Shown here: positions 5,006-55,051 of the stretch, piece after piece
Layout of the letters: every line of letters begins with the position of its first letter
How positions within the stretch are numbered: the first letter of the stretch is position 1
Assembly: GCF_001445655.1 (NCBI RefSeq)
Contig: NZ_LNBE01000004.1
Span: forward strand, 930,001-994,000
Reading direction: 5' to 3'
Length of the DNA: 64,000 nt
Origin: Streptomyces roseifaciens
Lineage (GTDB): Bacteria > Actinomycetota > Actinomycetes > Streptomycetales > Streptomycetaceae
The notes under the pieces: model-generated
Databases searched by the model: none
What the model saw: only the letters and a program-made list of their open reading frames with translations
Told to the model about the DNA's origin: nothing
Made by a program: the position numbers and the translations under genes

Positions 5006-8000
5006 GTGGATGTCGACCCAGGGACGCGGCAGCAGCCCCCGCACGGCGGCAGCGGAGCGCCCACCCGGCGCACCGTGGTCACCGCCGGCACCCTCGCAGG
5101 AATCGCAGGCATCACCGGCATCGCCGGAGCGGCCGGTGCCACCGCACTCGCCGGGACGGCCGCGGCCGCCACCCCCACCCGGCCCGCCGCCGAAGCCGTC
5201 CTGCGCTCCGCCGACCTCGACGTCCGCATCGACACCGCCTTCCCCCGCATCATCGCCTACACCCACCGCCCCACCGGAGACGTCGTCCACGCCCAGGAGG
5301 ACCCCGTCACCTCCCTGCTCGTGGACGAGAAGGAACACACCCCCCACGTCACCTCCACCGTCCGCGGCGACCGCGCCGCCTACGCCCTCACCCTCGACGG
5401 CGGCACCCGCATCGACGCCGAGATCCACGTCGACGGCCTGCTCGTCCACTGGCGGATCACCCGCATCGCCGACACCCCCGCCCTGCGCGTCGGCACCCTG
5501 CGCATCCCCGGACTCGCCCTGCTCAGCGTCCGCAGCAGTCAGCCCGGAGCCGCACTCCTCGCCGCCCGCATCCAGCTCGACAAGGCCAAGAACGGCGACA
5601 CCCTCGTCCGCCCCGGCCCGGACACGCCCGCCGACGAGGCGCCCATCGGCTGCGCCTACGCCGTCGTCAGCACCGGCCGGCTCGCCGCCGCCGCCGACAC
5701 CAACACCGTCCAGGACCGGCCCGACGCCGCCACCGCCTGGGAGAACGGCCGCTTCCGCCGCCAGACCCTCACCCGCACCGGCTACACCAAGACCCAGCTC
5801 ACCTGCGGCCAGTGGACCCACCGGGCCGCGGGAGCCGCCCCCACCGACACCGAACCCCTGCCCCGCGCCACCGTCATCCTCACCCGCGACCGCAACGGCG
5901 ACGGCGACGCCGACTGGCAGGACGCGGCCATCGCCCTGCGGGACATCACCCCCGAGCCCCTCGGAGCCGCCGAACAACACCTGCGCGTCGTCCCCCACAT
6001 AGCGTTCAACTTCGCCAGCCAGGCCACCAACCCGTTCCTCGCCACCCTCGACGACGTCAAACGGATCGCCCTGGCCACGGACGGACTGCGGCAGTTCACC
6101 CTCCTCAAGGGCTACCAGTCCGAAGGCCACGACTCGGCCCACCCCGACTACGGCGGCAACTACAACACCCGCGCCGGCGGCCTCGCCGACCTCAACACCC
6201 TGCTGCGCGCCGGAAAACGCTGGAACAGCGACTTCGCCGTGCACGTCAACACCACCGAGTCCTACCCGGTGGCCCACGCCTTCTCCGAGACCCTCGTCGA
6301 CAAGAACGACAGACAGTGGGACTGGCTCGACCAGTCCTACAAGATCGACGCTCGGCGCGACCTCCTCTCCGGCGACGTCGTCCGCCGCTTCCGGCAGCTG
6401 CGCGACGAGACCGACCCCGCCCTGACCACCCTCTACATCGACGTCTTCCGCGAGTCCGGCTGGAACTCCGACCGGCTCCAGCGCGCCCTGCGCGAGCAGG
6501 GCTGGCAGATCACCACCGAATGGGGCCACGGCCTGGAGCGCTCCAGCCTCTGGGCGCACTGGGCGAGCGAGACCGACTACGGGCCCGACACCTCGCGCGG
6601 CATCAACTCCCGGCTCATCCGCTTCGTCCACCACCACCGCAAGGACGTCTTCGCCGACAAGTGGCCGCTCCTCGGCACCGCGAAGCTCGGCACGTTCTCG
6701 GGGTGGCAGGGCAAGACCGGCTGGGAGCCCTTCCATCGCCTGCTGTGGACCGAGAACCTCCCGGCCAAATACCTCCAGGCGTACCCCGTCCGCACCTGGG
6801 GCGAGCACGAGATCACCTTCGAAGGGCCGACACGGACCGCCGTCGCCGACGCCGACGGCACGCGGACCATCACCACGGACGGGCGCGTGGTCTACCGCGG
6901 CGGCACGTACCTCCTGCCCTGGGAACCGCGCGAGGCCCGCGACCCCGCCAAGCTCTACCACTACAACCCGCAGGGCGGCACCACCCGCTGGCGCCTGCCG
7001 CGCGGCTGGGCCGGGCGGCGCACGGTCGTCCTCCACCGGCTCACCGACCAGGGCCGCGCCGACGCCCTCGAACTGCCGGTCAGCGGCGGCGAGGTCACGA
7101 TCGGGGCCGCGGCCGGGCAGCCGTACGTCCTCACCCGCGGCCACGGCCGCTCGCCGGACCCCGCCTGGGGCGAGGGCACCCCCCTGTACGACCCCGGCTT
7201 CCACTCGGGTGGCCTCGGTGGCCTCGGTGGCCTCGGCGGGTGGCAGGTCACCGGGCCCGCGGCCATCGAACGCAGCCCCCTGGGCGACTGGGAGCTCGTC
7301 GTCCGCGCCGGGGGAGCGGCCACGGCCGGCCAGCGGCTCGCCCGCCTCAGGCCCGGCACCTACGCGGCGTCCGTACAGGTCGAAGTCGGCGACACCGCGG
7401 GGGAGCGGCGCCGGGCCGGCCTGGAGATCCGCACCGCCGACGGCGTCACCGCCGCCAACTGGACGGACACCTCGACCGCCGTCAATCACGTGGCCGCCGA
7501 CCGCAAGCACGGCACCCGCTTCCAGCGGATGTTCACCCGGTTCACCGTGCCGCCGGGCGGCGGTCCCGTCACCCTGACGCTGACCGCCGCCGAGGGCGGC
7601 GCGCGCGTCCGCTTCGACGCGCTGCGGGTCGTCGCCACGGAAGCGCCGGCCACTCGTGCCGGCGCGCTCGTCTTCGAGGACTTCGAGCACGTCCCCCAGG
7701 GGTGGGGCCCCTTCGTCAAGGGCGACGCGGGCGGCGCGACCGACCCCCGTACCCACATCGCCCAGCGGCACGCGCCCTTCACCCGGCGCGGCTGGAACGG
7801 CAAGGCCGTCGACGACGTCATCGACGGCACCCAGTCCCTCAAGTCGCGCGGCGAGAACACCGGCGTCGTCTACCGCACCGTGCCGCACACCGTCCGCTTC
7901 CGGCCCGGGCACCGCTACCGCGTCTCCTTCCGCTACGAGAACGAGACCGCCGGGCAGTACGCCTGGATCACCGCCGTCGACACGCCGGAGACCCGCGAGC

Positions 8001-8179
8001 TGCACCGCACCCCGCTGCCCGCCGCCCACGCGCCCGCCACGCACACGTACGAGTTCACCGCGCCGGAGGCGGGGGAGGCGTGGGTGGGGCTGCGCAAGAC
8101 GGGCGACGGCAGCACGGCGGAATTCGTCCTCGACGGCTTCACGGTGCACGAAGCGGACGGGGCGGACGGGGCGGCGTAG
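5006..8179 (+). CDS. Tat-exported endo-alpha-N-acetylgalactosaminidase (GH101)
   Basis: 1057 residues from GTG, with a strong GGAGGAGG site upstream. Residues 20-52 are a Tat signal (TRRTVVTAG, then an Ala/Gly/Ile-rich core). The catalytic barrel is recognisable as GH101: the strand LYIDV with nucleophile candidate D479 and ITTEWGHG with acid/base candidate E505 match the arrangement in pneumococcal enzymes. The family releases the core-1 disaccharide (Gal-beta-1,3-GalNAc) from Ser/Thr of mucin-type glycoproteins. After a short Gly-Leu-Gly repeat linker near residue 735, the C-terminal ~310 residues look like two beta-sandwich carbohydrate-binding modules. No cell-wall anchor is present, so the enzyme is presumably secreted. 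The AraC gene just downstream could control it. Confidence 0.88.
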   Translation: MDVDPGTRQQPPHGGSGAPTRRTVVTAGTLAGIAGITGIAGAAGATALAGTAAAATPTRPAAEAVLRSADLDVRIDTAFPRIIAYTHRPTGDVVHAQEDPVTSLLVDEKEHTPHVTSTVRGDRAAYALTLDGGTRIDAEIHVDGLLVHWRITRIADTPALRVGTLRIPGLALLSVRSSQPGAALLAARIQLDKAKNGDTLVRPGPDTPADEAPIGCAYAVVSTGRLAAAADTNTVQDRPDAATAWENGRFRRQTLTRTGYTKTQLTCGQWTHRAAGAAPTDTEPLPRATVILTRDRNGDGDADWQDAAIALRDITPEPLGAAEQHLRVVPHIAFNFASQATNPFLATLDDVKRIALATDGLRQFTLLKGYQSEGHDSAHPDYGGNYNTRAGGLADLNTLLRAGKRWNSDFAVHVNTTESYPVAHAFSETLVDKNDRQWDWLDQSYKIDARRDLLSGDVVRRFRQLRDETDPALTTLYIDVFRESGWNSDRLQRALREQGWQITTEWGHGLERSSLWAHWASETDYGPDTSRGINSRLIRFVHHHRKDVFADKWPLLGTAKLGTFSGWQGKTGWEPFHRLLWTENLPAKYLQAYPVRTWGEHEITFEGPTRTAVADADGTRTITTDGRVVYRGGTYLLPWEPREARDPAKLYHYNPQGGTTRWRLPRGWAGRRTVVLHRLTDQGRADALELPVSGGEVTIGAAAGQPYVLTRGHGRSPDPAWGEGTPLYDPGFHSGGLGGLGGLGGWQVTGPAAIERSPLGDWELVVRAGGAATAGQRLARLRPGTYAASVQVEVGDTAGERRRAGLEIRTADGVTAANWTDTSTAVNHVAADRKHGTRFQRMFTRFTVPPGGGPVTLTLTAAEGGARVRFDALRVVATEAPATRAGALVFEDFEHVPQGWGPFVKGDAGGATDPRTHIAQRHAPFTRRGWNGKAVDDVIDGTQSLKSRGENTGVVYRTVPHTVRFRPGHRYRVSFRYENETAGQYAWITAVDTPETRELHRTPLPAAHAPATHTYEFTAPEAGEAWVGLRKTGDGSTAEFVLDGFTVHEADGADGAA

Positions 8180-8224
8180 GGGCCGCCGATGCGGCCGTCG
8201 GTGGGGCCGTCGATGGGGCTGTAG

Positions 8225-8242
8225 AGGGGGCCGCCGCCCCCT
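8225..8242 (+). terminator. Short GC hairpin between GH101 and araC-type genes
   Basis: AGGGGGC at 8225-8231 pairs with GCCCCCT at 8236-8242 across a four-base loop, 45 bases after the glycosidase stop. It is compact and lacks a T-tract, so its effect on transcription is uncertain. Confidence 0.45.
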
Positions 8243-8308
8243 GGTGAAAGCGCGTCGCCATGCGCGAAGATCGGCACACGGGGCCGACACCGCGGGAGGC
8301 CGGGACCC

Positions 8309-9199
8309 ATGTACCAGACATGGATGCGCTACTTCACCCCCGGCCCCGTCCACCACCGCCTCGGCCTCGTCTGCCTCGGCGTCGGCCTGCAGCACGGGGC
8401 GCTCCCCGCGGTCGGCCCCCGCACCCTCGACCACCACGTCGCCGTCGTCGTCCACGCCGGCAGCGGCTGGCTGCGCACGCCCGACGGGCGCACCCGCACC
8501 GTCACCGGCCCCGCGCTCCTGTGGCTCGCCCCCGGGGTCCCCCACCACTACGGGGCCGCGGGCGGGACCGGCTGGGACGAGAGCTTCGTCGACTTCACCG
8601 GCCCGGCCGTCGCCGCCTATACGGAACTGGGCTGCATCGAGCCCCACCGGCCCCTCGTGCCCCTCACGGACACCACCGCCGTCCGCGCCGTCGTCCACCG
8701 CATCGCCCGCGCCGCCCGGCGCGCCAATCCGCTCCTGGAGGTCGAGACCTCCGCGGCCGTGCACGAACTCCTGGTCGCCCTGCGCCGGGCGCGGGCCGAC
8801 ACCACGCGTGGCGGAGAACCGATTCTCCAGGCGCTCGCCCGGGACGCCTTCCTGCCCCTGTCCGTCGCCCAGCACGCCGCCCGGCACGGCATGACCACCG
8901 CCGAACTGCGCGCCGCCGTACGCCGCGGGGCCGGCTGCAGCCCCAAGGACTACCTGCTGACCATCCGCCTCGGCCGCGCCAAGGAACTCCTCGCCGCCAC
9001 GGAACTGCCCGTCGCCGCCGTCGCCCGCCGCGTCGGGTACGCCGACCCCGCCTACTTCAGCCGCCTCTTCACCCGCCGCGTCGGCACCGCGCCCGTCCGC
9101 TTCCGCGCCCGCCAAGGGCGCGCCGTGCCCGGCGGATGGAGCGCGCGCATCCCCGACCCGGACCACCCACCGGTGATCGCACCCCGCCCCTCCGCATAG
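8309..9199 (+). CDS. AraC-family transcriptional regulator
   Basis: 296 residues, ATG preceded by a GGGAGG-like site. The N-terminal half resembles the cupin-like ligand-binding domain of AraC proteins (VVHAGSGWLRTPDG, then LLWLAPGVPHHYG). The C-terminal half has the paired helix-turn-helix domain: a first helix-turn-helix around VAQHAARHGMTTAELRAAVRR and a second ending in VAAVARRVGYADPAYFSRLFTRR with the family signature. It binds DNA as a sugar- or metabolite-responsive activator in most relatives. Its position 129 bases downstream of the GH101 gene, in the same direction, makes mucin-type glycan degradation the obvious candidate process, though this is inferred from context only. Confidence 0.9.
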   Translation: MYQTWMRYFTPGPVHHRLGLVCLGVGLQHGALPAVGPRTLDHHVAVVVHAGSGWLRTPDGRTRTVTGPALLWLAPGVPHHYGAAGGTGWDESFVDFTGPAVAAYTELGCIEPHRPLVPLTDTTAVRAVVHRIARAARRANPLLEVETSAAVHELLVALRRARADTTRGGEPILQALARDAFLPLSVAQHAARHGMTTAELRAAVRRGAGCSPKDYLLTIRLGRAKELLAATELPVAAVARRVGYADPAYFSRLFTRRVGTAPVRFRARQGRAVPGGWSARIPDPDHPPVIAPRPSA

Positions 9200-32329: not shown

Positions 32330-32352
32330 TTGTCAGTGGGCCGTGGCAGGAT
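32330..32352 (+). promoter_or_regulatory. RecA-NDp/PafBC-type DNA-damage promoter of polA
   Basis: TTGTCAGTG (32330-32338), an 8-base spacer and the -10 hexamer CAGGAT (32347-32352), followed by seven bases and the GTG start. The box matches the mycobacterial consensus TTGTCRGTG-N8-TAnnnT except for the first -10 base. Confidence 0.75.
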
Positions 32353-32359
32353 CGGGGGC

Positions 32360-35095
32360 GTGGCAGCAAAGGCAGTGAAGACGAACGAACCGACCGGCAC
32401 CGAGGCAGCGGAGGGAGGTCGCCCCCGCCTGCTCCTGATGGACGGGCACTCGATGGCGTACCGGGCGTTCTTCGCGCTGCCCGCGGAGAATTTCACGACG
32501 GCCGCCGGTCAGACGACGAATGCGGTGTACGGCTTCGCGTCCATGCTGGCGAACACCCTCCGTGACGAGCAGCCCACGCACTTCGCCGTGGCGTTCGACG
32601 TGTCGCGCAAGACGTGGCGCTCCGAGGAGTTCCCGGAGTACAAGGCGACGCGCTCCAAGACGCCGGACGACTTCAAGGGCCAGGTGGAGCTGATCGGCGA
32701 CATGCTGGACGCGATGAGCGTGCCGCGGTTCGCGGTCGACGGCTTCGAGGCCGACGACGTGATCGCCACGCTTGCCACGCAGGCGGAGGCCGAGGGTTTC
32801 CACGTCTCGATCGTCACCGGCGACCGCGATTCCTTCCAGCTCGTCTCCGACGACGTCACGGTGCTGTATCCGACGAAGGGCGTCTCGGAGCTCACCCGCT
32901 TCACTCCGGAGAAGGTGCAGGAGAAGTACGGCCTGACCCCCTCGCAGTACCCGGACTTCGCGGCCCTGCGCGGCGACCCGTCGGACAACCTGCCGGGCAT
33001 CCCGGGCGTGGGCGAGAAGACCGCCGCGAAGTGGATCAACCAGTTCGGTTCCTTCGCCGATCTCGTGGAGCGCGTCGAGGAGGTCAAGGGCAAGGCCGGG
33101 CAGAACCTCCGCGATCACCTGGAGGCCGTCAAGCTCAACCGCCGCCTGACGGAGATGGTGCGTGACGTCGAGCTGCCCGTGCGCCCGGAGGGGCTGCGCC
33201 GCGCGGCGTACGACCGCAAGGCGCTGATCGCGTTCCTGGAGGGTCTGGAGATCCGCAACCAGGGCCTGCGGGACCGGCTGCTGGCCGCCGACCCGGGTGC
33301 GGAGGCCGCGGAGGAGATCGTCCCCGAGGCCGGTGCGGAGGTGGACGGCTCGGTGCTGGGCGCCGGCGAGCTCGCGCCGTGGCTGGCCGGGCACGGCTCG
33401 GTTCCGCTCGGTGTGGCCGTGGTCGACTCGTGGTCGCTGGGCAGTGGCCGGGTCGCGGAGATCGCGCTGGCGACGGGTGAGGGCCCGGCCGCCTGGTTCG
33501 ATCCCGCCGAGCTGGACGAGGCCGACGAGCGGGCGTTCGCCGCGTGGAGCGCGGATGCGGGTGCGCCGAAGGTCATGCACGACGCCAAGTCCGCGATGCG
33601 GGTCTTCGCCGAGCACGGCTGGACCGTCGAGGGCGTCAGCATGGACACGGCGCTGGCCGCGTATCTCGTGAAGCCCGGGCGTCGCTCCTTCGCGCTGGAC
33701 GCGCTGTCCGTGGAGTACCTGGGCCGCGAGCTGGCCACGGCCGCCGCGGGCGACGGTCAGCTGGCCTTCGGCGCGGACGAGCAGGCCGAGGCCGATGCGC
33801 TGATGGGCCGGGCCCGTACGGTCCTGGACCTGGGCGCGGCGTTCACCACGCGCCTGGAGGAGGTCGGCGCGGCGGAGCTGATGCGCGACGTGGAGCTGCC
33901 GACGAGCGCGCTGCTGGCCCGTATGGAGCGGGCGGGCATCGCCGCCGACCGCGGCTGGCTGGAGCGCATGGAGCAGCAGTTCGCGGCCGCGGTGCAGCAG
34001 GCCGTGCAGGAGGCGCACGCCGCGGCGGGCCGCGAGTTCAACCTGGGCTCCCCGAAGCAGCTGCAGGAGGTGCTCTTCGGCGAGCTGGGCCTGCCCAGGA
34101 CCAAGAAGACCAAGACCGGGTACACCACGGACGCCGACGCCCTGGCCTGGCTCGCGGCGCAGACGGAGAACGAGCTCCCGGTGATCATGCTGCGGCACCG
34201 TGAGCAGTCGAAGCTGCGCTCCACGGTCGAGGGGCTGATCAAGGCGATCGCGCCCGGCGGCCGTATCCACACCACCTTCAACCAGACGGTGGCGGCCACG
34301 GGCCGGCTCTCCTCCACCGACCCCAATCTGCAGAACATCCCGGTGCGGACGGACGAGGGCCGGGCCATTCGCCGCGGTTTCGTCGTCGGCGAGGGCTTCG
34401 AGTCCCTGATGACGGCCGACTACAGCCAGATCGAGCTGCGCGTGATGGCCCACCTGTCGGAGGACGAGGGCCTGATCGAGGCGTTCAACTCCGGCGAGGA
34501 CCTGCACACCACCGTCGCCTCCCAGGTCTTCGGCGTGGCCAAGTCCGAGGTCGACCCGGAGATGCGCCGGAAGATCAAGGCGATGTCGTACGGCCTCGCG
34601 TACGGGCTGTCGGCCTTCGGCCTGTCCCAGCAGCTGAACATCGCCCCGGGCGAGGCCGGCAAGCTGATGGACACCTTCTTCGAGCGTTTCGGCGGCGTGC
34701 GGGACTACCTCCAGCGGGTCGTCGTCGAGGCCCGCGCCACGGGCTACACCGAGACGATGCTCGGCCGCCGCCGCTACCTCCCGGACCTCAACAGCGACAA
34801 CCGCCAGCGCCGCGAGATGGCCGAGCGGATGGCGCTGAACGCCCCGATCCAGGGCACGGCCGCCGACATCGTCAAGATCGCGATGCTGCGGGTGGGCGAG
34901 GCGCTGGAGGCGGAGGAGCTCTCGTCCCGGATGCTCCTGCAGGTCCACGACGAAATCGTGCTGGAGATCGCGCCGGGCGAGCGGGAGGCCGTCGAGGCGC
35001 TGGTCCGCCGCGAGATGGCGGGGGCGGTGTCGCTGAGCGCTCCGCTGGACGTGTCGGTCGGCGTGGGCCGGGACTGGGAGTCCGCCGCGCACTGA
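32360..35095 (+). CDS. polA: DNA polymerase I
   Basis: 911 residues from GTG; the upstream frame is unsupported. Residues ~20-300 are the 5'-3' exonuclease/flap domain (LLLMDGHSMAYRAFFA, FEADDVIATL, TGDRDSFQL, RGDPSDNLPG). Residues ~320-500 hold the 3'-5' exonuclease fold, but the catalytic acidic residues are not recognisable, as in other actinobacterial Pol I, so no proofreading is expected. The polymerase domain shows motif A MTADYSQIELR, the O-helix with RRKIKAMSYGLAYG, and motif C QVHDEIVLE. It fills gaps in excision repair and removes RNA primers. The damage-type promoter upstream predicts induction by DNA damage. Confidence 0.97.
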   Translation: MAAKAVKTNEPTGTEAAEGGRPRLLLMDGHSMAYRAFFALPAENFTTAAGQTTNAVYGFASMLANTLRDEQPTHFAVAFDVSRKTWRSEEFPEYKATRSKTPDDFKGQVELIGDMLDAMSVPRFAVDGFEADDVIATLATQAEAEGFHVSIVTGDRDSFQLVSDDVTVLYPTKGVSELTRFTPEKVQEKYGLTPSQYPDFAALRGDPSDNLPGIPGVGEKTAAKWINQFGSFADLVERVEEVKGKAGQNLRDHLEAVKLNRRLTEMVRDVELPVRPEGLRRAAYDRKALIAFLEGLEIRNQGLRDRLLAADPGAEAAEEIVPEAGAEVDGSVLGAGELAPWLAGHGSVPLGVAVVDSWSLGSGRVAEIALATGEGPAAWFDPAELDEADERAFAAWSADAGAPKVMHDAKSAMRVFAEHGWTVEGVSMDTALAAYLVKPGRRSFALDALSVEYLGRELATAAAGDGQLAFGADEQAEADALMGRARTVLDLGAAFTTRLEEVGAAELMRDVELPTSALLARMERAGIAADRGWLERMEQQFAAAVQQAVQEAHAAAGREFNLGSPKQLQEVLFGELGLPRTKKTKTGYTTDADALAWLAAQTENELPVIMLRHREQSKLRSTVEGLIKAIAPGGRIHTTFNQTVAATGRLSSTDPNLQNIPVRTDEGRAIRRGFVVGEGFESLMTADYSQIELRVMAHLSEDEGLIEAFNSGEDLHTTVASQVFGVAKSEVDPEMRRKIKAMSYGLAYGLSAFGLSQQLNIAPGEAGKLMDTFFERFGGVRDYLQRVVVEARATGYTETMLGRRRYLPDLNSDNRQRREMAERMALNAPIQGTAADIVKIAMLRVGEALEAEELSSRMLLQVHDEIVLEIAPGEREAVEALVRREMAGAVSLSAPLDVSVGVGRDWESAAH

Positions 35096-46768: not shown

Positions 46769-48199
46769 TCAGACCAGGCGCCGGATCTCGCCCCGTACGC
46801 GGTAGAAGCCGCCGGCGGCGGGGGAGAGGGCGTCGATGACGTAACGGGCGCCGGGCTCGCGTATGTGACGCGGGAACTGAACGTTCCAGGTGGGGTCGTA
46901 GCCCTCGGAGACGACGTGCACGCGCAGCCGGCCGGCGTCCTGCACGCACTCGACCACGATGCCCGAGGCGGGCGCCGCGCTCACCGTGGAGAGCGTGCGG
47001 GCCGGGGTGTACGTGGGCACGGCGGCGGCCGACTTGACGTCCACCGGCACGGGGACGCTGCCCGCCTGCGCGGCGGAGACCGCGCCCTCACTGGCGTCGA
47101 CGCAGACCAGCGAGCCGTCCGTGGTGACCATGTACAGCTTCTCGTTCAGGTACTGCATGGACAGCGCCGAACCGCTGCCCGTGCCGAGCTTCCACAGGCG
47201 GGTGCCGTCCGCCGCGAAGCAGTACACCGAGGAGGCGGAGTCGCCCGCGAAGACATAGCGGCCGCCGGGCGCGGTGGCGCAGGAGTAGACCACGGTGTCG
47301 CACTGGTAGGTGGCCTCGACGGCGCCCGTGGCCTTCGACAGGCGCTGGACGACGCGGCGGTTGGTGCCGGCGTAGACCGCGTGGTCCTCCTGCCAGCCGA
47401 ACAGCACCGAGCCGGAGGTGGGGGTGTGCCACAGCTCGCCGGTGCCTTCGGGGGCGTAGGCGGTCACCCCGCGCGCGTGCCCGTGGTAGACGGCGTGCTC
47501 GTCGCGCCGGACCATCCAGGCGTGGTCGCCGCTGCTGCGGCGCGACCACTGGTGCTCGTCCTCGTGGTCGATGACGGTCAGTCCGCCGTTGCGGTCGGCG
47601 ACGTCGAGGACGCCCTCGCGGATGTCGAGCCAGAAGATGTCGACGTCGGAGGCGATCTGGTAGGCGGCGAAGGGGAGCTTGGAGGACAGGTCGTAGACCG
47701 TGCCGTCGTCGCAGCCGGCGTAGATCCAGAAGTCGTCCGCCACCAGGCACTTGACGCCGGCGGGCAGCTGGTAGCGGGCCAGCACCTCGCCGTCGTGGCC
47801 GAGGGTGTGGACGTGGCCGGCCTGGTTGCCGACCCAGCAGCGGTCCTCGTCCACGTGGATGCCGAACGCGGAGGAGCCGGTGGCGAAACGCCACAGCACC
47901 GGGGCAACGGCCCGCGCGGTCGACGGCGCGGACGTCACCTCGCGGCGCGTCACGGGCCGGGCCGCCCGCTGCCCCGCCACCGCCGGGGCGTAGCCCTTGC
48001 GGACCTTCTCGCCCACCTTCTTCGCCGCCGCGGCCCGGGCCTTCTCCACGCTGGGGAACGACGAGGTCTGGACCTGGCCCGCGGCGCCGATCCGGCCGTA
48101 GCGCACCGTGACCGCCGTGCCGGCGACCGTGACCTCGTAGAACTTGTGCGCCCCGCCGCCGTCCTGCGACAGCTCCAGGTACGTCGTCTCTCCCGCCAT
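46769..48199 (-). CDS. WGR-domain protein fused to a beta-propeller
   Basis: 476 residues, ATG with GAGAGGGG seven bases upstream, no signal peptide. Residues 1-80 are a WGR domain: TTYLELSQDGGGAHKFYEV, YGRIGAAGQ in place of W-G-R, and SVEKARAAAAKKVGEKVRKGY. WGR domains occur next to PARP catalytic domains and in bacterial DNA-end or molybdate-associated proteins, and in PARPs they contact damaged DNA. Residues ~100-420 form a six- or seven-bladed propeller with PQQ/WD-like repeats (CWVGNQAGHVHTLGHDGEV, WIYAGCDDGTVYDL, YVFAGDSASSVYCFAADG). No catalytic PARP domain is present. A damage-type promoter stands 52 bases upstream. It may sense or scaffold at damaged DNA; this is inference. Confidence 0.85.
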   Translation of the reverse strand: MAGETTYLELSQDGGGAHKFYEVTVAGTAVTVRYGRIGAAGQVQTSSFPSVEKARAAAAKKVGEKVRKGYAPAVAGQRAARPVTRREVTSAPSTARAVAPVLWRFATGSSAFGIHVDEDRCWVGNQAGHVHTLGHDGEVLARYQLPAGVKCLVADDFWIYAGCDDGTVYDLSSKLPFAAYQIASDVDIFWLDIREGVLDVADRNGGLTVIDHEDEHQWSRRSSGDHAWMVRRDEHAVYHGHARGVTAYAPEGTGELWHTPTSGSVLFGWQEDHAVYAGTNRRVVQRLSKATGAVEATYQCDTVVYSCATAPGGRYVFAGDSASSVYCFAADGTRLWKLGTGSGSALSMQYLNEKLYMVTTDGSLVCVDASEGAVSAAQAGSVPVPVDVKSAAAVPTYTPARTLSTVSAAPASGIVVECVQDAGRLRVHVVSEGYDPTWNVQFPRHIREPGARYVIDALSPAAGGFYRVRGEIRRLV

Positions 48200-48250
48200 G
48201 GCAAAGCCCCTCTCCCCGTCGGCCGCGCCGGCCGATCTCCGGTGCGCAGC

Positions 48251-48273
48251 ACGCTAGGGGCAGCCACTGACAA
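48251..48273 (-). promoter_or_regulatory. RecA-NDp/PafBC-type DNA-damage promoter of the WGR gene
   Basis: On the minus strand TTGTCAGTG (48265-48273), 8 bases, TAGCGT (48251-48256): a full match to the mycobacterial consensus TTGTCRGTG-N8-TAnnnT. Expected transcription start near 48244, 45 nt before the ATG. Confidence 0.82.
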
Positions 48274-49011: not shown

Positions 49012-49983
49012 CTACAGGCCCAGGAAGCCCAGGATCGACAGGCCGTCGTCCTCTTCCTCGTCCTGCTCGTCCTGCTCGTTCTGCTCGTCGAGGTCCTCCT
49101 CCAGGGCGTCCTCGATCTCGTGCGGGGCGTTGCTGATGATGCCGTCGACCCCCATGCGCGCCAGGGCGACGGCCCGGTCGCCGTTGTCCACGGTCCACGC
49201 CGAGACCTCGAGCATCCGCCCGTGCGGCCCCCGCAGGGCGTGCACCGCCCGCACCCATGCCGCGGTGACGCTCCGGTGGTGCGGGTTGATCTGGTCGGCG
49301 AAGGCGGCGTACGAGCGCAGCTCCGAGGGCTTCGGGGCCCCGAGGAACCCCGTCTTCACGTCCGGCCGCACGCGGTGGAAGGCCTTGAGGGAGGCCGCGC
49401 TGAAGGACTGCACCACCAGGGAGCTCCGCACGTGGCGCGCGTTGAGCCACCCGGCGCGCTGCAGCTCGCTCGCCAGCTGCCGCTCGATGCCCGGGTAGAG
49501 CTCGGGGGCCTTGACCTCCAGCAGCAGCTTCTGCCGGTTGCGGTCGACGCGCTGCAGATAGCTGCGCAGCGTGGGCACCCGTTCCCCGGCGAACCTGCGG
49601 TCGTACCAGCTGCCCGCGTCGAGCTTGCGGATCTCGGCGAGGGTGAAGTCGGCGATCTTCCAGGGGGCGCGGCCGGGGAAGCGCCGCTTGACGTCGGTCG
49701 TCCGCTCCAGGGTGGTGTCGTGCATGACGATCAGGGCACCGTCCTTGGTGCGCTGCACGTCGTTCTCCACCCAGGTGATCCCCAGTTCGGCGGCTCTGTC
49801 GACGGAGGCCAGCGTGTTCTCCGGGGCCTGCACGGGCACACCGCGGTGGCCGATCGCGAGCGGCACGCGCGTGTGCGCGGCGGCCCGCACGGGGGCGGCC
49901 GCCCGGGCGTGGGGGGCGGCGAGGACGAGCGTGGACAGGACGAGCAGCGCGCTGGTCACGGCGGAGACGGGGCGGATGCGCAT
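49012..49983 (-). CDS. Secreted glycerophosphodiester phosphodiesterase
   Basis: 323 residues from ATG 49983 with GAGGAG six bases upstream; earlier in-frame codons are not supported. A Sec signal peptide of about 28 residues ends in AARAAA-like sequence. The GDPD barrel follows: [15 protein letters not shown] with the catalytic His and Arg, [33 protein letters not shown] and AWTVDN. The enzyme hydrolyses glycerophosphodiesters to glycerol-3-phosphate and alcohol, for example to recycle lipids. The C-terminus ends in an acidic Glu/Asp/Gln stretch (about 295-313) then [10 protein letters not shown], an unusual tail with no clear role. Confidence 0.92.
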
Positions 49984-50184
49984 ACGGGCTCCTCGCGGCG
50001 TCTGGACACGGACGGGCACGTACATCGGGGACCGGGCGTCCCCGGCCCTTGGTGTACGGGATGGGCGTACCTCAGACAAGTACGCGACGGGGGCGGGGGA
50101 AGGGAACGGGAACGGCTGTTCTTCGCCGGATCGACGCCACCCGTTCGCCCCGGGAACGGGGGCCGGACGCCGGGTGTCCGGCCG

Positions 50185-50207
50185 TTGTCAGTGGGGGGCC
50201 GTACCGT
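50185..50207 (+). promoter_or_regulatory. RecA-NDp/PafBC-type DNA-damage promoter of uvrB
   Basis: TTGTCAGTG (50185-50193), 8 bases, TACCGT (50202-50207), then six bases to the uvrB ATG. Full consensus match; the transcript would be leaderless. Confidence 0.85.
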
Positions 50208-50213
50208 GGTCTC

Positions 50214-52355
50214 ATGCGGCCCGTATCGAAGATCGAACGCAAGGTGGCGCCTTTCGAGGTCGTCAGCCCCTTCCAGCCCAGCGGTGACCAGCCGACGGCC
50301 ATCGCCGAGCTGGAGCGACGTATCCGCGCAGGTGAGAAGGATGTCGTACTCCTCGGTGCGACCGGCACCGGCAAGTCCGCGACCACCGCGTGGATGATCG
50401 AGAAGCTCCAGCGGCCGACGCTCGTCATGGCGCCGAACAAGACCCTGGCGGCCCAGCTCGCCAATGAGTTCCGCGAGCTCCTGCCCAACAACGCCGTCGA
50501 ATACTTCGTCTCGTACTACGACTACTACCAGCCCGAGGCCTACGTACCGCAGTCGGACACGTACATCGAGAAGGATTCCTCGATCAATGAGGAGGTGGAG
50601 CGGCTGCGCCACTCCGCCACCAACTCCCTGCTCACCCGGCGTGACGTCGTGGTGGTGGCCTCGGTGTCCTGCATCTACGGCCTGGGCACCCCCCAGGAGT
50701 ACGTCGACCGCATGGTGCCGCTGAAGGTCGGCGAGGAGATCGACCGCGACGAGCTGCTGCGCCGCTTCGTGGAGATCCAGTACACCCGCAACGACGTCGC
50801 GTTCACCCGCGGCACCTTCCGCGTCCGCGGCGACACCATCGAGATCTTCCCGGTCTACGAGGAGCTCGCGGTCCGCATCGAGATGTTCGGCGACGAGATC
50901 GAGGCGCTCTCGACGCTCCACCCGCTCACCGGCGAGGTCCTCTCCGACGACCGGGAGCTGTACGTCTTCCCCGCCAGCCACTACATCGCCGGTGCCGAGC
51001 GGATGGAGAAGGCCGTCGCCGGCATCGAGGCGGAGCTGGAGGAGACCCTCGCCCGCATGGAGAAGCAGGGCAAGCTCCTGGAGGCGCAGCGCCTGCGCAT
51101 GCGCACCACGTACGACATCGAGATGATGCGCCAGATCGGCTCCTGCTCCGGCATCGAGAACTACTCGCTGCACATGGACGACCGCGAGCCCGGCTCCCCG
51201 CCCAACACCCTCCTCGACTACTTCCCGGAGGACTTCCTCCTCGTCATCGACGAGTCGCACGTCACCGTCCCCCAGATCGGCGCCATGTACGAGGGCGACG
51301 CCTCCCGCAAGCGCACGCTCGTGGAGCACGGCTTCCGGCTGCCCTCGGCCATGGACAACCGCCCGCTGAAGTGGGAGGAGTTCACCGAGCGCATCGGCCA
51401 GACGGTCTACCTCTCGGCGACCCCCGGAAAGTACGAGCTCTCGCGCTCGGACGGCTTCGTCGAGCAGATCATCCGCCCCACCGGCCTGGTCGACCCCGAG
51501 GTCGTCGTCAAGCCGACCGAGGGTCAGATCGACGACCTGGTGCACGAGATCCGCACGCGCACCGAGAAGGACGAGCGCGTCCTCGTCACCACCCTCACCA
51601 AGAAGATGGCCGAGGACCTCACGGACTACTTCCTGGAGCTCGGCATCCAGGTCCGCTACCTGCACAGCGACGTCGACACGCTGCGCCGCGTGGAGCTGCT
51701 GCGCGAGCTGCGGGCCGGCGAGTACGACGTCCTGGTCGGCATCAACCTGCTGCGCGAGGGCCTCGACCTGCCCGAGGTGTCCCTGGTCGCCATCCTGGAC
51801 GCCGACAAGGAGGGCTTCCTGCGCTCGGGCACCTCCCTGATCCAGACCATCGGTCGTGCCGCGCGCAACGTCTCCGGCCAGGTCCACATGTACGCCGACA
51901 AGGTCACCCCGGCGATGGAGAAGGCCATCGACGAGACCAACCGCCGCCGGGCCAAGCAGATCGCGTACAACAAGGAGCGGGGCATCGACCCCCAGCCCCT
52001 GCGCAAGAAGATCGGCGACATCGTCGCCACCCTGGCCCGCGAGGAGATCGACACCCAGGAGCTCCTGGGCTCCGGCTACCGCGAGAAGGGCGCCAAGGGC
52101 AAGGCCCCGGTGCCCACCGCGCAGGCCGGGAAGGCGGCGGGCAAGGGTGCCAAGGCCGCCAAGGGCAAGGCGAAGGCCGCCGTCGCGGTGACGGACCGTC
52201 CCGCCGCCGAACTGGCTCAGCAGATCGAGGACATGACCGACCGTATGCGGGCCGCGGCCGCGGAGCTGCAGTTCGAGGTCGCCGCCCGGCTGCGCGACGA
52301 GGTGAGCGAGCTGAAGAAGGAGCTGCGGCAGATGAAGGAGGCCGGGCTCGCCTGA
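50214..52355 (+). CDS. uvrB: Excinuclease ABC subunit B
   Basis: 713 residues from ATG 50214 ([10 protein letters not shown]). P-loop [11 protein letters not shown] near 50, the beta-hairpin with [23 protein letters not shown]-box VIDESHV, helicase motif V/VI with [16 protein letters not shown] and TIGRAARN, and the C-terminal UvrC-binding UVR domain (about 675-710). Before that domain is a Lys/Ala-rich linker (about 620-660), an actinomycete feature. UvrB verifies the lesion loaded by UvrA and recruits UvrC. Upstream is a PafBC-type box, so DNA damage induction without LexA is expected. uvrA is 7 kb downstream in the same direction; uvrC is outside the window. Confidence 0.97.
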
Positions 52356-53185: not shown

Positions 53186-55051
53186 ATGACGGCCGAGCTG
53201 GTGCGGGGGCAGAACCACCCGCTGTCCGGTACCCGCCTGGAGATCCGGGTCGCGGCGGGAGGCCCCGTCGTCGCGGGCGCCACGCTCGCCGGGGCTGACG
53301 GCAAGGTGGCCGGCGCCGACCGCGTCGCGCACCCCGCCTCCCACCGCCTCCCCGGCCTGGAGGTCTCCCGGCAGGCCGCGGCCGACCACCGGCTCGCCGT
53401 CGACCTGGAGGCCCTCCCCGAGGACGTGCACCGGGTCCACGTGATGCTCGCGCTGCCCACCGGAGCGGGCGGTCCCACGTCCTTCGGCACGCTGGCCGCC
53501 CCGTTCATCGCCGTCACCGAGCTCGACGGGGCCGAGATCGCCTCCTTCACGATCACGGACCTCGGCGAGGAGTCCGCCGTCGTCGCCCTGGAGCTGTACC
53601 GCAGGCAGGGCGCCTGGAAGGTGCGCGCCGTCGGCCAGGGGTACGCGGGCGGGCTCGCCGCGATGCTGCACGACCAGGGGCTGGAGCAGTCCTTCGAGAC
53701 CGCCGCGGCCATCAACGAGGCCGTCACCCGGGGCATGGCCCGCGCGGTCGCACCGCCGCCCCCGCGCCCGGTTGCGGACCCCGCGCCGCAGGCCCCCGCA
53801 CCGCAGGCCCCCGCGCCCGGCGGCGGCCCCGTCGACTACCGCCACCCCCGCCGCGCCACCGCGACGCCCCCGGACCCCGCTCCGGCCGCCGCCCCGCCCG
53901 CAGAGCCGGGGCAGCCGCCCCGCCCCGTCGCGGGCGACGCCAACGGCTGGACCATGAACGAGCGGCTCTACAACCAGGTGTGGGGCATGTTCGAGGACCT
54001 GGCCCGCTCGGCCGCGGCCTACCGCAGCGCCGTCGACTTCGCGGAGTCGCGCCTGGAGCAGGAGCTGGACAAGGTCCTCTCCGACCCGGCCACGCGCGTG
54101 GGTGCCGCGGCCGACGCGGCCCGGGCCGAGGCCCGGGCCCGGCAGGCGAGCCTCGTGGAGCAGGCCCGGGCGGTCCTCGACCGCGACCTCGCCCAGCTCG
54201 CCGCCGAGGCCGAGGTCGTCGAGCACGCACTGCCGCCGGCCTTCGCCCGCTGGGACAGCCCGGTCTGGCAGGGTTTCCAGGTGCCGCTGGAGACCCCGAT
54301 GGCGCTGCGCCTGGGCGAGCTGCACCTGCCGGAGCGCACCGACCTGCGGATCCCCATGCTGGTGCGGCTGCCCCTGGAGCGCGGGCTGTGGATCGACAGC
54401 GGCCGCACCTCCGGCCTGCAGGCGGCGATCGTGGACTCCTCCGAGCTGCGCCGCCTGGCCATGGAGACGGCGGTCGCGCACGCCGCGCGGCTGCTGGCCG
54501 TGCACCCCGTCGGCGACTACACGGTGCACGTGATCGACCCGGCGGGCGCGGCCGGCGGGGCGCTCGCGCCGCTGCTGCAGTCCGGCGCGCTGAAGGAGGC
54601 TCCCGCGGCCGGGGCGCAGGGGGTCTCCGCGCTGCTGGACCGGCTGACGCGCCGCGTCGACCTGGTGCAGATGGCCGCGCGCAGCGGCGCCTCCGACTCC
54701 CTCCCGCCGGATGTGGACACCGCGGAGCAGCTGCTGATCGTCAACGACTTCCCGCACGGCTTCGACGACCGCTCGGTCAACCAGCTGCGGTACATCGCGG
54801 ACGAGGGGCCGTCCGTGGGGGTGCACCTGATGATGGTCGCCGACCGGGAGGACGCCCGGGGGTACGGGCCGGTGCTCGACCCGCTCTGGCGCGCCCTGCT
54901 GCGCATCACGCCGGTCCCCGACGACCACCTCGCCGATCCGTGGGTCGGGCACACCTGGACGTACGAGCCCTCGCTCGTGCCGGTCGGCAGCGATGTGCTG
55001 GGGCAGGTGCTCCGGAGCGTGGGGCAGGCGCGGCAGGCGTATGGCATCTAG
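53186..55051 (+). CDS. Large TerD-family protein with FtsK-like C-terminal region
   Basis: 621 residues, ATG with GAGGGGG upstream. The N-terminal ~165 residues are TerD-like (HPLSGTRLEIRVAAG, HRVHVMLALP, DLGEESAVVALELYRRQGAWKVRAVGQGY). A Pro/Ala-rich linker runs from ~190 to 255. The C-terminal ~330 residues have a coiled section (about 265-335) and then a region reminiscent of the second half of FtsK/SpoIIIE-type ATPases (LRIPMLVRLPLERGLWID, LLIVNDFPHGFDDRSVNQLRYIADEGPSVGVHLMMVADRED). No Walker A is present, so this part is probably not catalytic. Similar fusions occur in Streptomyces tellurium-resistance loci. Confidence 0.85.
   Translation: MTAELVRGQNHPLSGTRLEIRVAAGGPVVAGATLAGADGKVAGADRVAHPASHRLPGLEVSRQAAADHRLAVDLEALPEDVHRVHVMLALPTGAGGPTSFGTLAAPFIAVTELDGAEIASFTITDLGEESAVVALELYRRQGAWKVRAVGQGYAGGLAAMLHDQGLEQSFETAAAINEAVTRGMARAVAPPPPRPVADPAPQAPAPQAPAPGGGPVDYRHPRRATATPPDPAPAAAPPAEPGQPPRPVAGDANGWTMNERLYNQVWGMFEDLARSAAAYRSAVDFAESRLEQELDKVLSDPATRVGAAADAARAEARARQASLVEQARAVLDRDLAQLAAEAEVVEHALPPAFARWDSPVWQGFQVPLETPMALRLGELHLPERTDLRIPMLVRLPLERGLWIDSGRTSGLQAAIVDSSELRRLAMETAVAHAARLLAVHPVGDYTVHVIDPAGAAGGALAPLLQSGALKEAPAAGAQGVSALLDRLTRRVDLVQMAARSGASDSLPPDVDTAEQLLIVNDFPHGFDDRSVNQLRYIADEGPSVGVHLMMVADREDARGYGPVLDPLWRALLRITPVPDDHLADPWVGHTWTYEPSLVPVGSDVLGQVLRSVGQARQAYGI

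Follow-up and report, generated by a model that had tools for sequence, protein, structure and literature searches.

A PafBC-type promoter box conserved upstream of a WGR/beta-propeller gene in Streptomyces and shared with other WGR genes and a MoxR/VWA/SWIM cluster

In mycobacteria, PafBC was reported to bind and activate at the RecA-NDp promoter motif (PMC6789036, PMC8223512, PMC11804915). PMC5656591 gives the consensus as tTGTCRgtg-8nt-TannnT, and the core is TGTCGG in M. smegmatis, while TGTCAG or TGTCAC is allowed in M. tuberculosis (PMC8151990). Besides repair genes, the mycobacterial regulon takes in non-repair genes too (PMC8223512). In S. coelicolor, the gene SCO6735 has a RecA-NDp promoter and was induced 5-fold by UV, and its product is a macrodomain hydrolase without WGR domain or propeller (PMC5087735). 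For S. venezuelae, an initial search in a 2022 paper suggested that the M. smegmatis motif was not conserved there (PMC9380542). Among the matches listed, no paper described PafBC control of a WGR/propeller locus or of a MoxR/VWA/SWIM locus, with most subscription journals lying outside the coverage of the search.

WGR genes are reported under other damage regulators. The cluster yehF-yehI-yehL-yehM-yehP-yehQ of E. coli K-12, the counterpart of the MoxR/VWA/SWIM machine described below, includes a WGR protein (YehF), followed by members of the DUF4132 (YehI), AAA_5, DUF5682, VWA_CoxE and SWIM families. WGR and DUF4132 are separate proteins there, and no propeller was detected in the six proteins scanned. 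We take molR to be yehF and its neighbours. An SOS-type sequence CTGGATAAAATTACAG stands 9 nt upstream of the yehF ATG, which is weak alone because matches to the loose pattern CTG-N10-CAG abound in the yeh stretch (16, shuffled mean 5.7). Among the known LexA-regulated genes molR is given (PMC11039860), and during an SOS time course the yehF transcript row rises from -0.12 to between 0.8 and 1.14 (table of PMC11002266, no unit shown). In Deinococcus radiodurans (loci DR2173 and DRA0165-DRA0166), depletion of the damage repressor DdrO, a regulator other than PafBC, was reported to raise DR2173 (WGR) and DRA0166 (DUF4132) strongly (PMC8533742).

In S. roseifaciens, a WGR/beta-propeller gene was identified in the window, which is the whole stretch of 64,000 nucleotides analysed here, and its features are collected in Table 1. 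The promoter box reads TTGTCAGTGGCTGCCCCTAGCGT and has no mismatch to tTGTCRgtg-N8-TAnnnT, as proposed by an earlier reading made from the sequence alone, with 51 nt between box end and ATG where that reading had counted 52. Motif and spacing are as in the mycobacterial PafBC/RecA-NDp regulon.

Table 1. Coordinates of the WGR/propeller locus and of related sites in the window
Feature	Position	Strand	Basis or remark
WGR/beta-propeller gene, 476 aa (P0001)	46769..48199	-	
WGR domain, aa 5-74, signature YGR	47978..48187	-	Pfam PF05406, E 5.4e-18
PQQ/BamB-type beta-propeller region, about aa 102-390 (approximate limits)	47030..47896	-	Pfam PQQ_2, PDB sequence search
C-terminal module, aa 410-476 (last 67 aa)	46772..46972	-	no Pfam family
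PafBC/RecA-NDp-type promoter box TTGTCAGTG-N8-TAGCGT of the WGR/propeller gene	48251..48273	-	scan, orthologue conservation
Upstream element TTGTCAGTG, the -26 element of PafBC promoters	48265..48273	-	
-10 hexamer TAGCGT of the WGR/propeller box	48251..48256	-	
Perfect PafBC box of uvrB	50185..50207	+	6 nt before ATG at 50214
One-mismatch PafBC box of polA (-10 CAGGAT)	32330..32352	+	7 nt before GTG at 32360
Exact LexA-type site GAACGGCTGTTC upstream of uvrB	50110..50121	+	consensus as assumed by us

The whole box occurred three times in the window at up to one mismatch (shuffled mean 0.03), heading the WGR gene, uvrB and polA. The nine upstream bases were said in the sequence-only reading to recur before polA and uvrB; three copies of the 9-mer TTGTCRGTG were indeed found, while the polA box is not a full match owing to its -10 hexamer. 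The 9-mer alone (shuffled mean 0.37) is weaker evidence than the whole box, since three copies were also reached in 1 of 100 shuffles. For the SOS/LexA box, GAAC-N4-GTTC was presumed to be the consensus. No such site was found near the WGR promoter, the nearest one at up to one mismatch lying at 49591, more than 1.3 kb off, and the 19 sites counted at this threshold were in no excess over chance (mean 17.97). A structured 5' leader of the WGR/propeller gene gave no signal (z-score +0.6).

Conservation of the box was followed in 110 Streptomyces orthologue loci, consisting of the 80 best-ranked of 410 relatives together with the 30 best-ranked among the 55 of 150 genomes that had a match, own locus included. 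The box was present within 400 bp upstream in all 110, perfect in 89 and with one mismatch in 21. Across 100 distinct windows, 11 of the 12 defined positions were invariant (the last eight of the upstream element and T, A and final T of the -10 hexamer), the first T was kept in 80%, and the spacer drifted. Outside Streptomyces, the form NTGTC-N12-TAnnnT was found within 200 bp upstream in 17/17 actinobacterial loci (shuffled mean 0.02, largest 1), which were taken from 19 such matches, one of the two left out being broken; the GTG part was mostly lost there.

Since uvrB is near in only 22 of 80 orthologue loci, the box follows the WGR gene itself; an ogt-type gene was seen in 21 of 80, and some contigs end inside the fetched flank in both counts. 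A tie to uvrB or ogt through neighbourhood was thus rejected as a general feature, and the link to excision repair suggested in the early reading gains no support from the neighbourhood. No widely shared neighbour of the WGR/propeller gene was found in the 80 loci, the commonest standing in 22, and no MoxR, DUF5682, VWA or SWIM neighbour recurred in them. The gene is accessory, since it was present in only 55 of the 150 Streptomyces genomes. Among the matches listed, the nearest named relative is S. hiroshimensis (97% identity), and 1509 of 7995 scored candidate proteins reached E <= 0.001.

In the whole genome of S. roseifaciens (8.64 Mb), the motif scan gave 16 exact sites and none for the reversed pattern, or 64 sites against one when a single mismatch was allowed. 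In the 150 Streptomyces genomes 2999 exact sites were found against seven for the reversed control (counted by eye), every genome having some, with a median of 18 and a range of 3-40. At 30 of the 64 S. roseifaciens sites, a start codon (ATG or GTG) is found 6 or 7 nt past the box, while the remaining 48 offsets (0 to 49) average 1.9 start codons (averaged by hand); this peak fits leaderless transcripts beginning about 7 nt after the -10 element, as promoters predict. Start-codon placement is evidence independent of the motif itself. The WGR gene, with its 51-nt spacer, differs from the +6/+7 peak of the 64 sites.

PafB and PafC homologues are encoded in tandem in S. roseifaciens; judged by eye, one flank of the pair holds pafA-like and FKBP-like ORFs, and the opposite flank a tatC-like ORF. 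Their best solved-structure matches were mycobacterial PafB (7p5x, E 2e-46) and PafC (7p5x, E 2.7e-53), respectively. All 16 exact S. roseifaciens sites read TGTCAG, which differs from the TGTCGG of M. smegmatis (PMC8151990), and this Streptomyces form may account for the statement on non-conservation in S. venezuelae (PMC9380542). A PafBC-type promoter on the WGR/propeller gene is strongly supported by the conserved box, the counts over whole genomes, the position of start codons and the pafB and pafC homologues, so that this part of the sequence-only reading is very probably right.

The other boxes give a testable map of a candidate RecA/LexA-independent damage regulon in Streptomyces. An ORF start lies downstream of 15 of the 16 exact sites in S. 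roseifaciens, and one exact site (L003) is likely a chance occurrence because it lies inside a long ORF read in the opposite direction (NRPS-like by eye). By Pfam, the exact-site genes encode uracil-DNA glycosylase (ung), a macrodomain protein, an AlkZ-like glycosylase, a mycothiol-dependent MDMPI protein, MgsA/RarA, DnaX and the SWIM, UvrB and WGR proteins, with ruvC, rpsF-ssb and recA recognised by eye alone; no Pfam family was found for the products of L006, L013 and L015. The macrodomain gene (L002) has an exact box, and the S. coelicolor macrodomain gene SCO6735 has the same promoter type. Boxes on recA, uvr and ruvC genes are common to mycobacteria (PMC8223512) and S. roseifaciens, where recA and ruvC were assigned by eye and uvrB and uvrC by Pfam.

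There were 48 one-mismatch sites, and the products of 25 were scanned by Pfam. Repair and replication products were DinB, UvrC, HhH-GPD glycosylase, PolA-type polymerase, RadA-like protein, two UvrD-type helicases, DEAD helicase (DinG by eye), RecQ, PriA, PolA, Lhr, ThyX and gyrase/topoisomerase IV subunit A. Non-repair products were two ABC transporters, DUF1963, DUF6891, YunG, SUKH and pentapeptide proteins, and a glycosyltransferase gene and the MoxR operon are also headed by such sites. For L207 and L242 no Pfam family was found, and several of the 48 sites sit within ORFs or have no clear gene. Two assignments made by eye, L227 as dnaB and L221 as dksA, were replaced after the Pfam scan by UvrD and HhH-GPD glycosylase, respectively.

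WGR was found in 64 of the 150 Streptomyces genomes. A long WGR ORF of 1208-1290 aa exists in nine of them, one of which (G100) also carries the propeller type; G098 has a further WGR ORF of 358 aa, and G090 a weak WGR match. Mutual exclusion of the propeller and long types was considered and dropped (one genome has both, Fisher p 0.16, not significant). In the upstream DNA of ten other WGR loci, i.e. the nine long ORFs and the 358-aa ORF, a perfect and correctly oriented box was present 55-84 nt before the start in seven. In G063 the gap does hold a perfect box, but this one is directed away from the WGR gene and adjoins an inverse ORF starting with the same 17 residues, the long WGR gene of G100 has a box at two mismatches, and no box was found upstream of the 358-aa ORF. 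The two long proteins scanned by Pfam, from G104 (perfect box) and G100, are WGR-DUF4132 proteins. Downstream of the long WGR gene, a MoxR-type AAA_5 gene and then a DUF5682 gene follow in G104, and DUF5682 and VWA_CoxE genes are present in G075 (Pfam); a MoxR-like gene was also recognised by eye in G075 and G063, while none directly follows in G100. SWIM was not found in the long-WGR operons, and in G104 no Pfam match was obtained for the ORF that comes next after the VWA position. Where it was read, the gene order equals the E. coli order yehI-L-M-P.

The S. roseifaciens genome also holds a divergent cluster, SWIM-DUF5691 // AAA_5-DUF5682-VWA_CoxE. The yeh-type parts lie apart in this species, and the damage regulator differs from that of E. 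coli. The SWIM protein of this divergon was found in 141 of the 150 Streptomyces genomes, and seven of the nine genomes without it are assemblies of at least 630 contigs. In the best 30 of the SWIM loci, the SWIM-side box was perfect in 30/30, and the divergent MoxR-side box had one mismatch in 29 and two in one. Given a median of 18 exact sites per genome, it is unlikely that three related kinds of locus carry boxes by accident, although the loci were grouped after inspection. The second, long WGR type (seven of ten loci) and the divergon (30/30) under the same box are new here. All 55 genomes with the WGR/propeller gene also have SWIM, but this co-occurrence is uninformative, since SWIM is in 141 of 150 anyway and most of its absences fall in fragmented assemblies; the wide distribution of SWIM also means that the machine does not need the WGR/propeller protein.

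The architecture given in the sequence-only reading, an N-terminal WGR domain joined to a beta-propeller without a PARP catalytic domain, agrees with the Pfam scan of P0001. WGR scored 65.3 bits (cut-off 22) and PQQ_2 36.6 bits (cut-off 27.6), a Beta-prop_ACSF4 match of 53.3 bits stayed below its own cut-off of 133, and no Pfam match to the PARP catalytic (ADP-ribosyltransferase) domain was obtained. The propeller region matched designed 'Cake' propellers and pieces of BamB in the PDB sequence search. The WGR domain of P0001, of a kind that reads DNA breaks, belongs to the same family as that of PARPs, and P0001 differs from them in having a propeller in place of the catalytic domain and Tyr in place of the usual signature Trp. 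In an alignment of 55 proteins, the others being 55-93% identical to P0001, G35 and R36 were invariant and Y34 was kept in at least 90%. A four-sequence WGR profile matched the solved WGR of a Bacteroides protein (E 1.8e-22) as well as the WGR of PARP3 (E 5.7e-4), the match to PARP1 being not significant (E 0.63).

The explanation that we rate best overall, and somewhat favour, is that in Streptomyces the WGR/propeller gene is controlled by PafBC, as part of a DNA-damage regulon independent of RecA/LexA, and encodes a non-catalytic lesion reader, perhaps working with the MoxR/VWA/SWIM machine. On damage, transcription from the box would be started by PafBC together with the housekeeping holoenzyme, giving a non-enzymatic protein whose WGR domain could recognise a lesion such as a DNA end, nick or gap while the propeller and C-terminal module served as a docking platform, most likely for the co-induced MoxR ATPase/VWA/SWIM machine. 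The protein probably takes part in the damage response, which gains support because the boxes are also present on other WGR genes. For DNA binding by its WGR domain the chances look about even, and a partnership with the MoxR/VWA/SWIM machine is put forward tentatively. Counting against this explanation are the Trp to Tyr change, the accessory nature of the gene, the want of a common neighbour, the D. deserti homologue without a DdrO motif (see below), and the three of ten other WGR loci without a correctly placed perfect box.

That the box is a chance match or belongs to a neighbouring gene has a negligible probability: the 9-mer alone is reproduced in triplicate by one window shuffle in a hundred, but the box stands in 110/110 orthologue loci, the reversed controls over whole genomes are almost empty, and the box is oriented toward the WGR gene and kept where uvrB is not near. 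A main reader of the box other than PafBC is also very improbable, for example ClgR, for which recognition of the recA P1 region was reported in M. smegmatis (quoted in PMC5656591), since PafBC binding and activation at the motif are described in mycobacteria (PMC6789036, PMC8223512, PMC11804915) and both pafB and pafC homologues exist in S. roseifaciens. It seems unlikely that the protein, instead of being a repair factor, is an accessory of a biological-conflict (anti-phage) system that damage would switch on as a sign of infection. Its patchy distribution (55/150 genomes), the homologues on records of a plasmid collection, a weak PADLOC match to WGR_XIII (E 1.6e-4) and weak, below-cut-off bpMoxR matches in the MoxR proteins would fit such a role, but nine other proteins scanned had no PADLOC match, the phage collection gave no match, and widely shared neighbours were absent from the 80 loci. 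The words WGR, SWIM, DUF5682, PafBC and molR did not occur in the available part of a paper on conflict systems (eLife 2020, PMC7159879).

More weight, though still clearly less than to a lesion reader, can be given to a PafBC-induced protein that does not touch DNA, in which WGR would be a protein- or nucleotide-binding module serving general stress, such as proteostasis or a MolR-like metabolic regulator. Some homologues are annotated as molybdenum metabolism regulator, the signature Trp is replaced by Tyr, and non-repair genes occur in the mycobacterial PafBC regulon (PMC8223512) and under the sites found here. Against it, the molybdate genes were unaffected by DdrO depletion (PMC8533742), WGR genes recur under LexA, DdrO and PafBC-type control, and the WGR profile still matches PARP3.

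Returning to the lesion reader, we consider it possible, though doubtful, that WGR and the MoxR ATPase/DUF5682/VWA/SWIM proteins form one damage machine across phyla, which would be wired to the damage regulator of each lineage, i.e. LexA in E. coli, DdrO in Deinococcus and PafBC in Streptomyces, with the WGR/propeller protein as a detached lesion reader recruiting the AAA+/VWA remodeller. In Deinococcus deserti, upstream of the WGR/propeller homologue (54%), no DdrO-type motif, in the form that we assumed for the scan, was found at up to three mismatches, and a looser form was at chance level. A damage-related role for this architecture had been called new; it is not wholly so, with WGR genes already under LexA (molR) and DdrO (DR2173), whereas the propeller-type locus was not among the PafBC papers listed. 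The boxes on the WGR/propeller gene, the second kind of WGR gene and the related cluster suggest an unstudied DNA-damage machine. The damage-type promoter that the uncharacterised MoxR/VWA/SWIM cluster shares with both kinds of WGR gene gives a functional handle on families annotated as unknown.

For the C-terminal module of P0001, neither a Pfam family nor, at the limits used, a solved chain was matched, and it occurs a single time in the S. roseifaciens genome. A stretch like it stands twice (by eye) near the end of a VWA protein of Deinococcus ficus, which may be a loose tie to VWA proteins.

The genome of S. roseifaciens contains 16 exact and 48 one-mismatch sites of the PafBC-type promoter box (tTGTCRgtg-N8-TAnnnT), distributed over loci L001-L015, L158 and L199-L243 and the window, and these sites make up a predicted PafBC regulon of Streptomyces, in which many repair genes are apparently leaderless. 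A 2022 paper (PMC9380542) suggested a lack of conservation of the mycobacterial motif in S. venezuelae. Three open reading frames headed by an exact box are candidate new damage-response genes (table below). The ORF at L207:2031-2525 has its ATG 7 nt behind a one-mismatch box; its product, without a Pfam match, looks by eye like a second macrodomain protein.

Upstream of uvrB (window 50110-50207), a perfect PafBC box is accompanied by a LexA-type site that is likewise exact, and this gene may thus respond to two damage regulators. An ORF of 621 aa just past uvrB (window 53186-55051) contains a partial TerD domain.

Coordinates of box-headed ORFs and of the unnamed C-terminal stretch of the WGR/beta-propeller protein P0001
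Feature	Location	Remark
ORF, 87 aa	L006:3069-3332	exact box; no Pfam or NCBIfam family
ORF, 103 aa	L013:3682-3993	exact box; no Pfam or NCBIfam family
ORF, 355 aa	L015:2691-3758	exact box; no Pfam or NCBIfam family
Unnamed C-terminal stretch, ~67 aa	window 46772-46972	P0001 aa 410-476

The C-terminal stretch of P0001 matched no Pfam family, nor did a relative of solved structure turn up, and it was seen again, twice by eye, in P0242, a VWA protein of Deinococcus ficus (L293:3426-5285).

In one species, the Streptomyces genome G063, the box (6805-6827 of L260, G063:C137:375500-386200) does not face the long WGR gene but points the other way, and a second, inversely oriented ORF has the same first 17 residues as that gene; either the DNA is locally inverted here or the assembly is at fault. 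On a mobilizable plasmid of Calothrix brevissima (L292), a tandem pair of genes annotated as WGR proteins (6001-8721) adjoins a RecD/TraA helicase gene, with the propeller as the sole Pfam match of the second.
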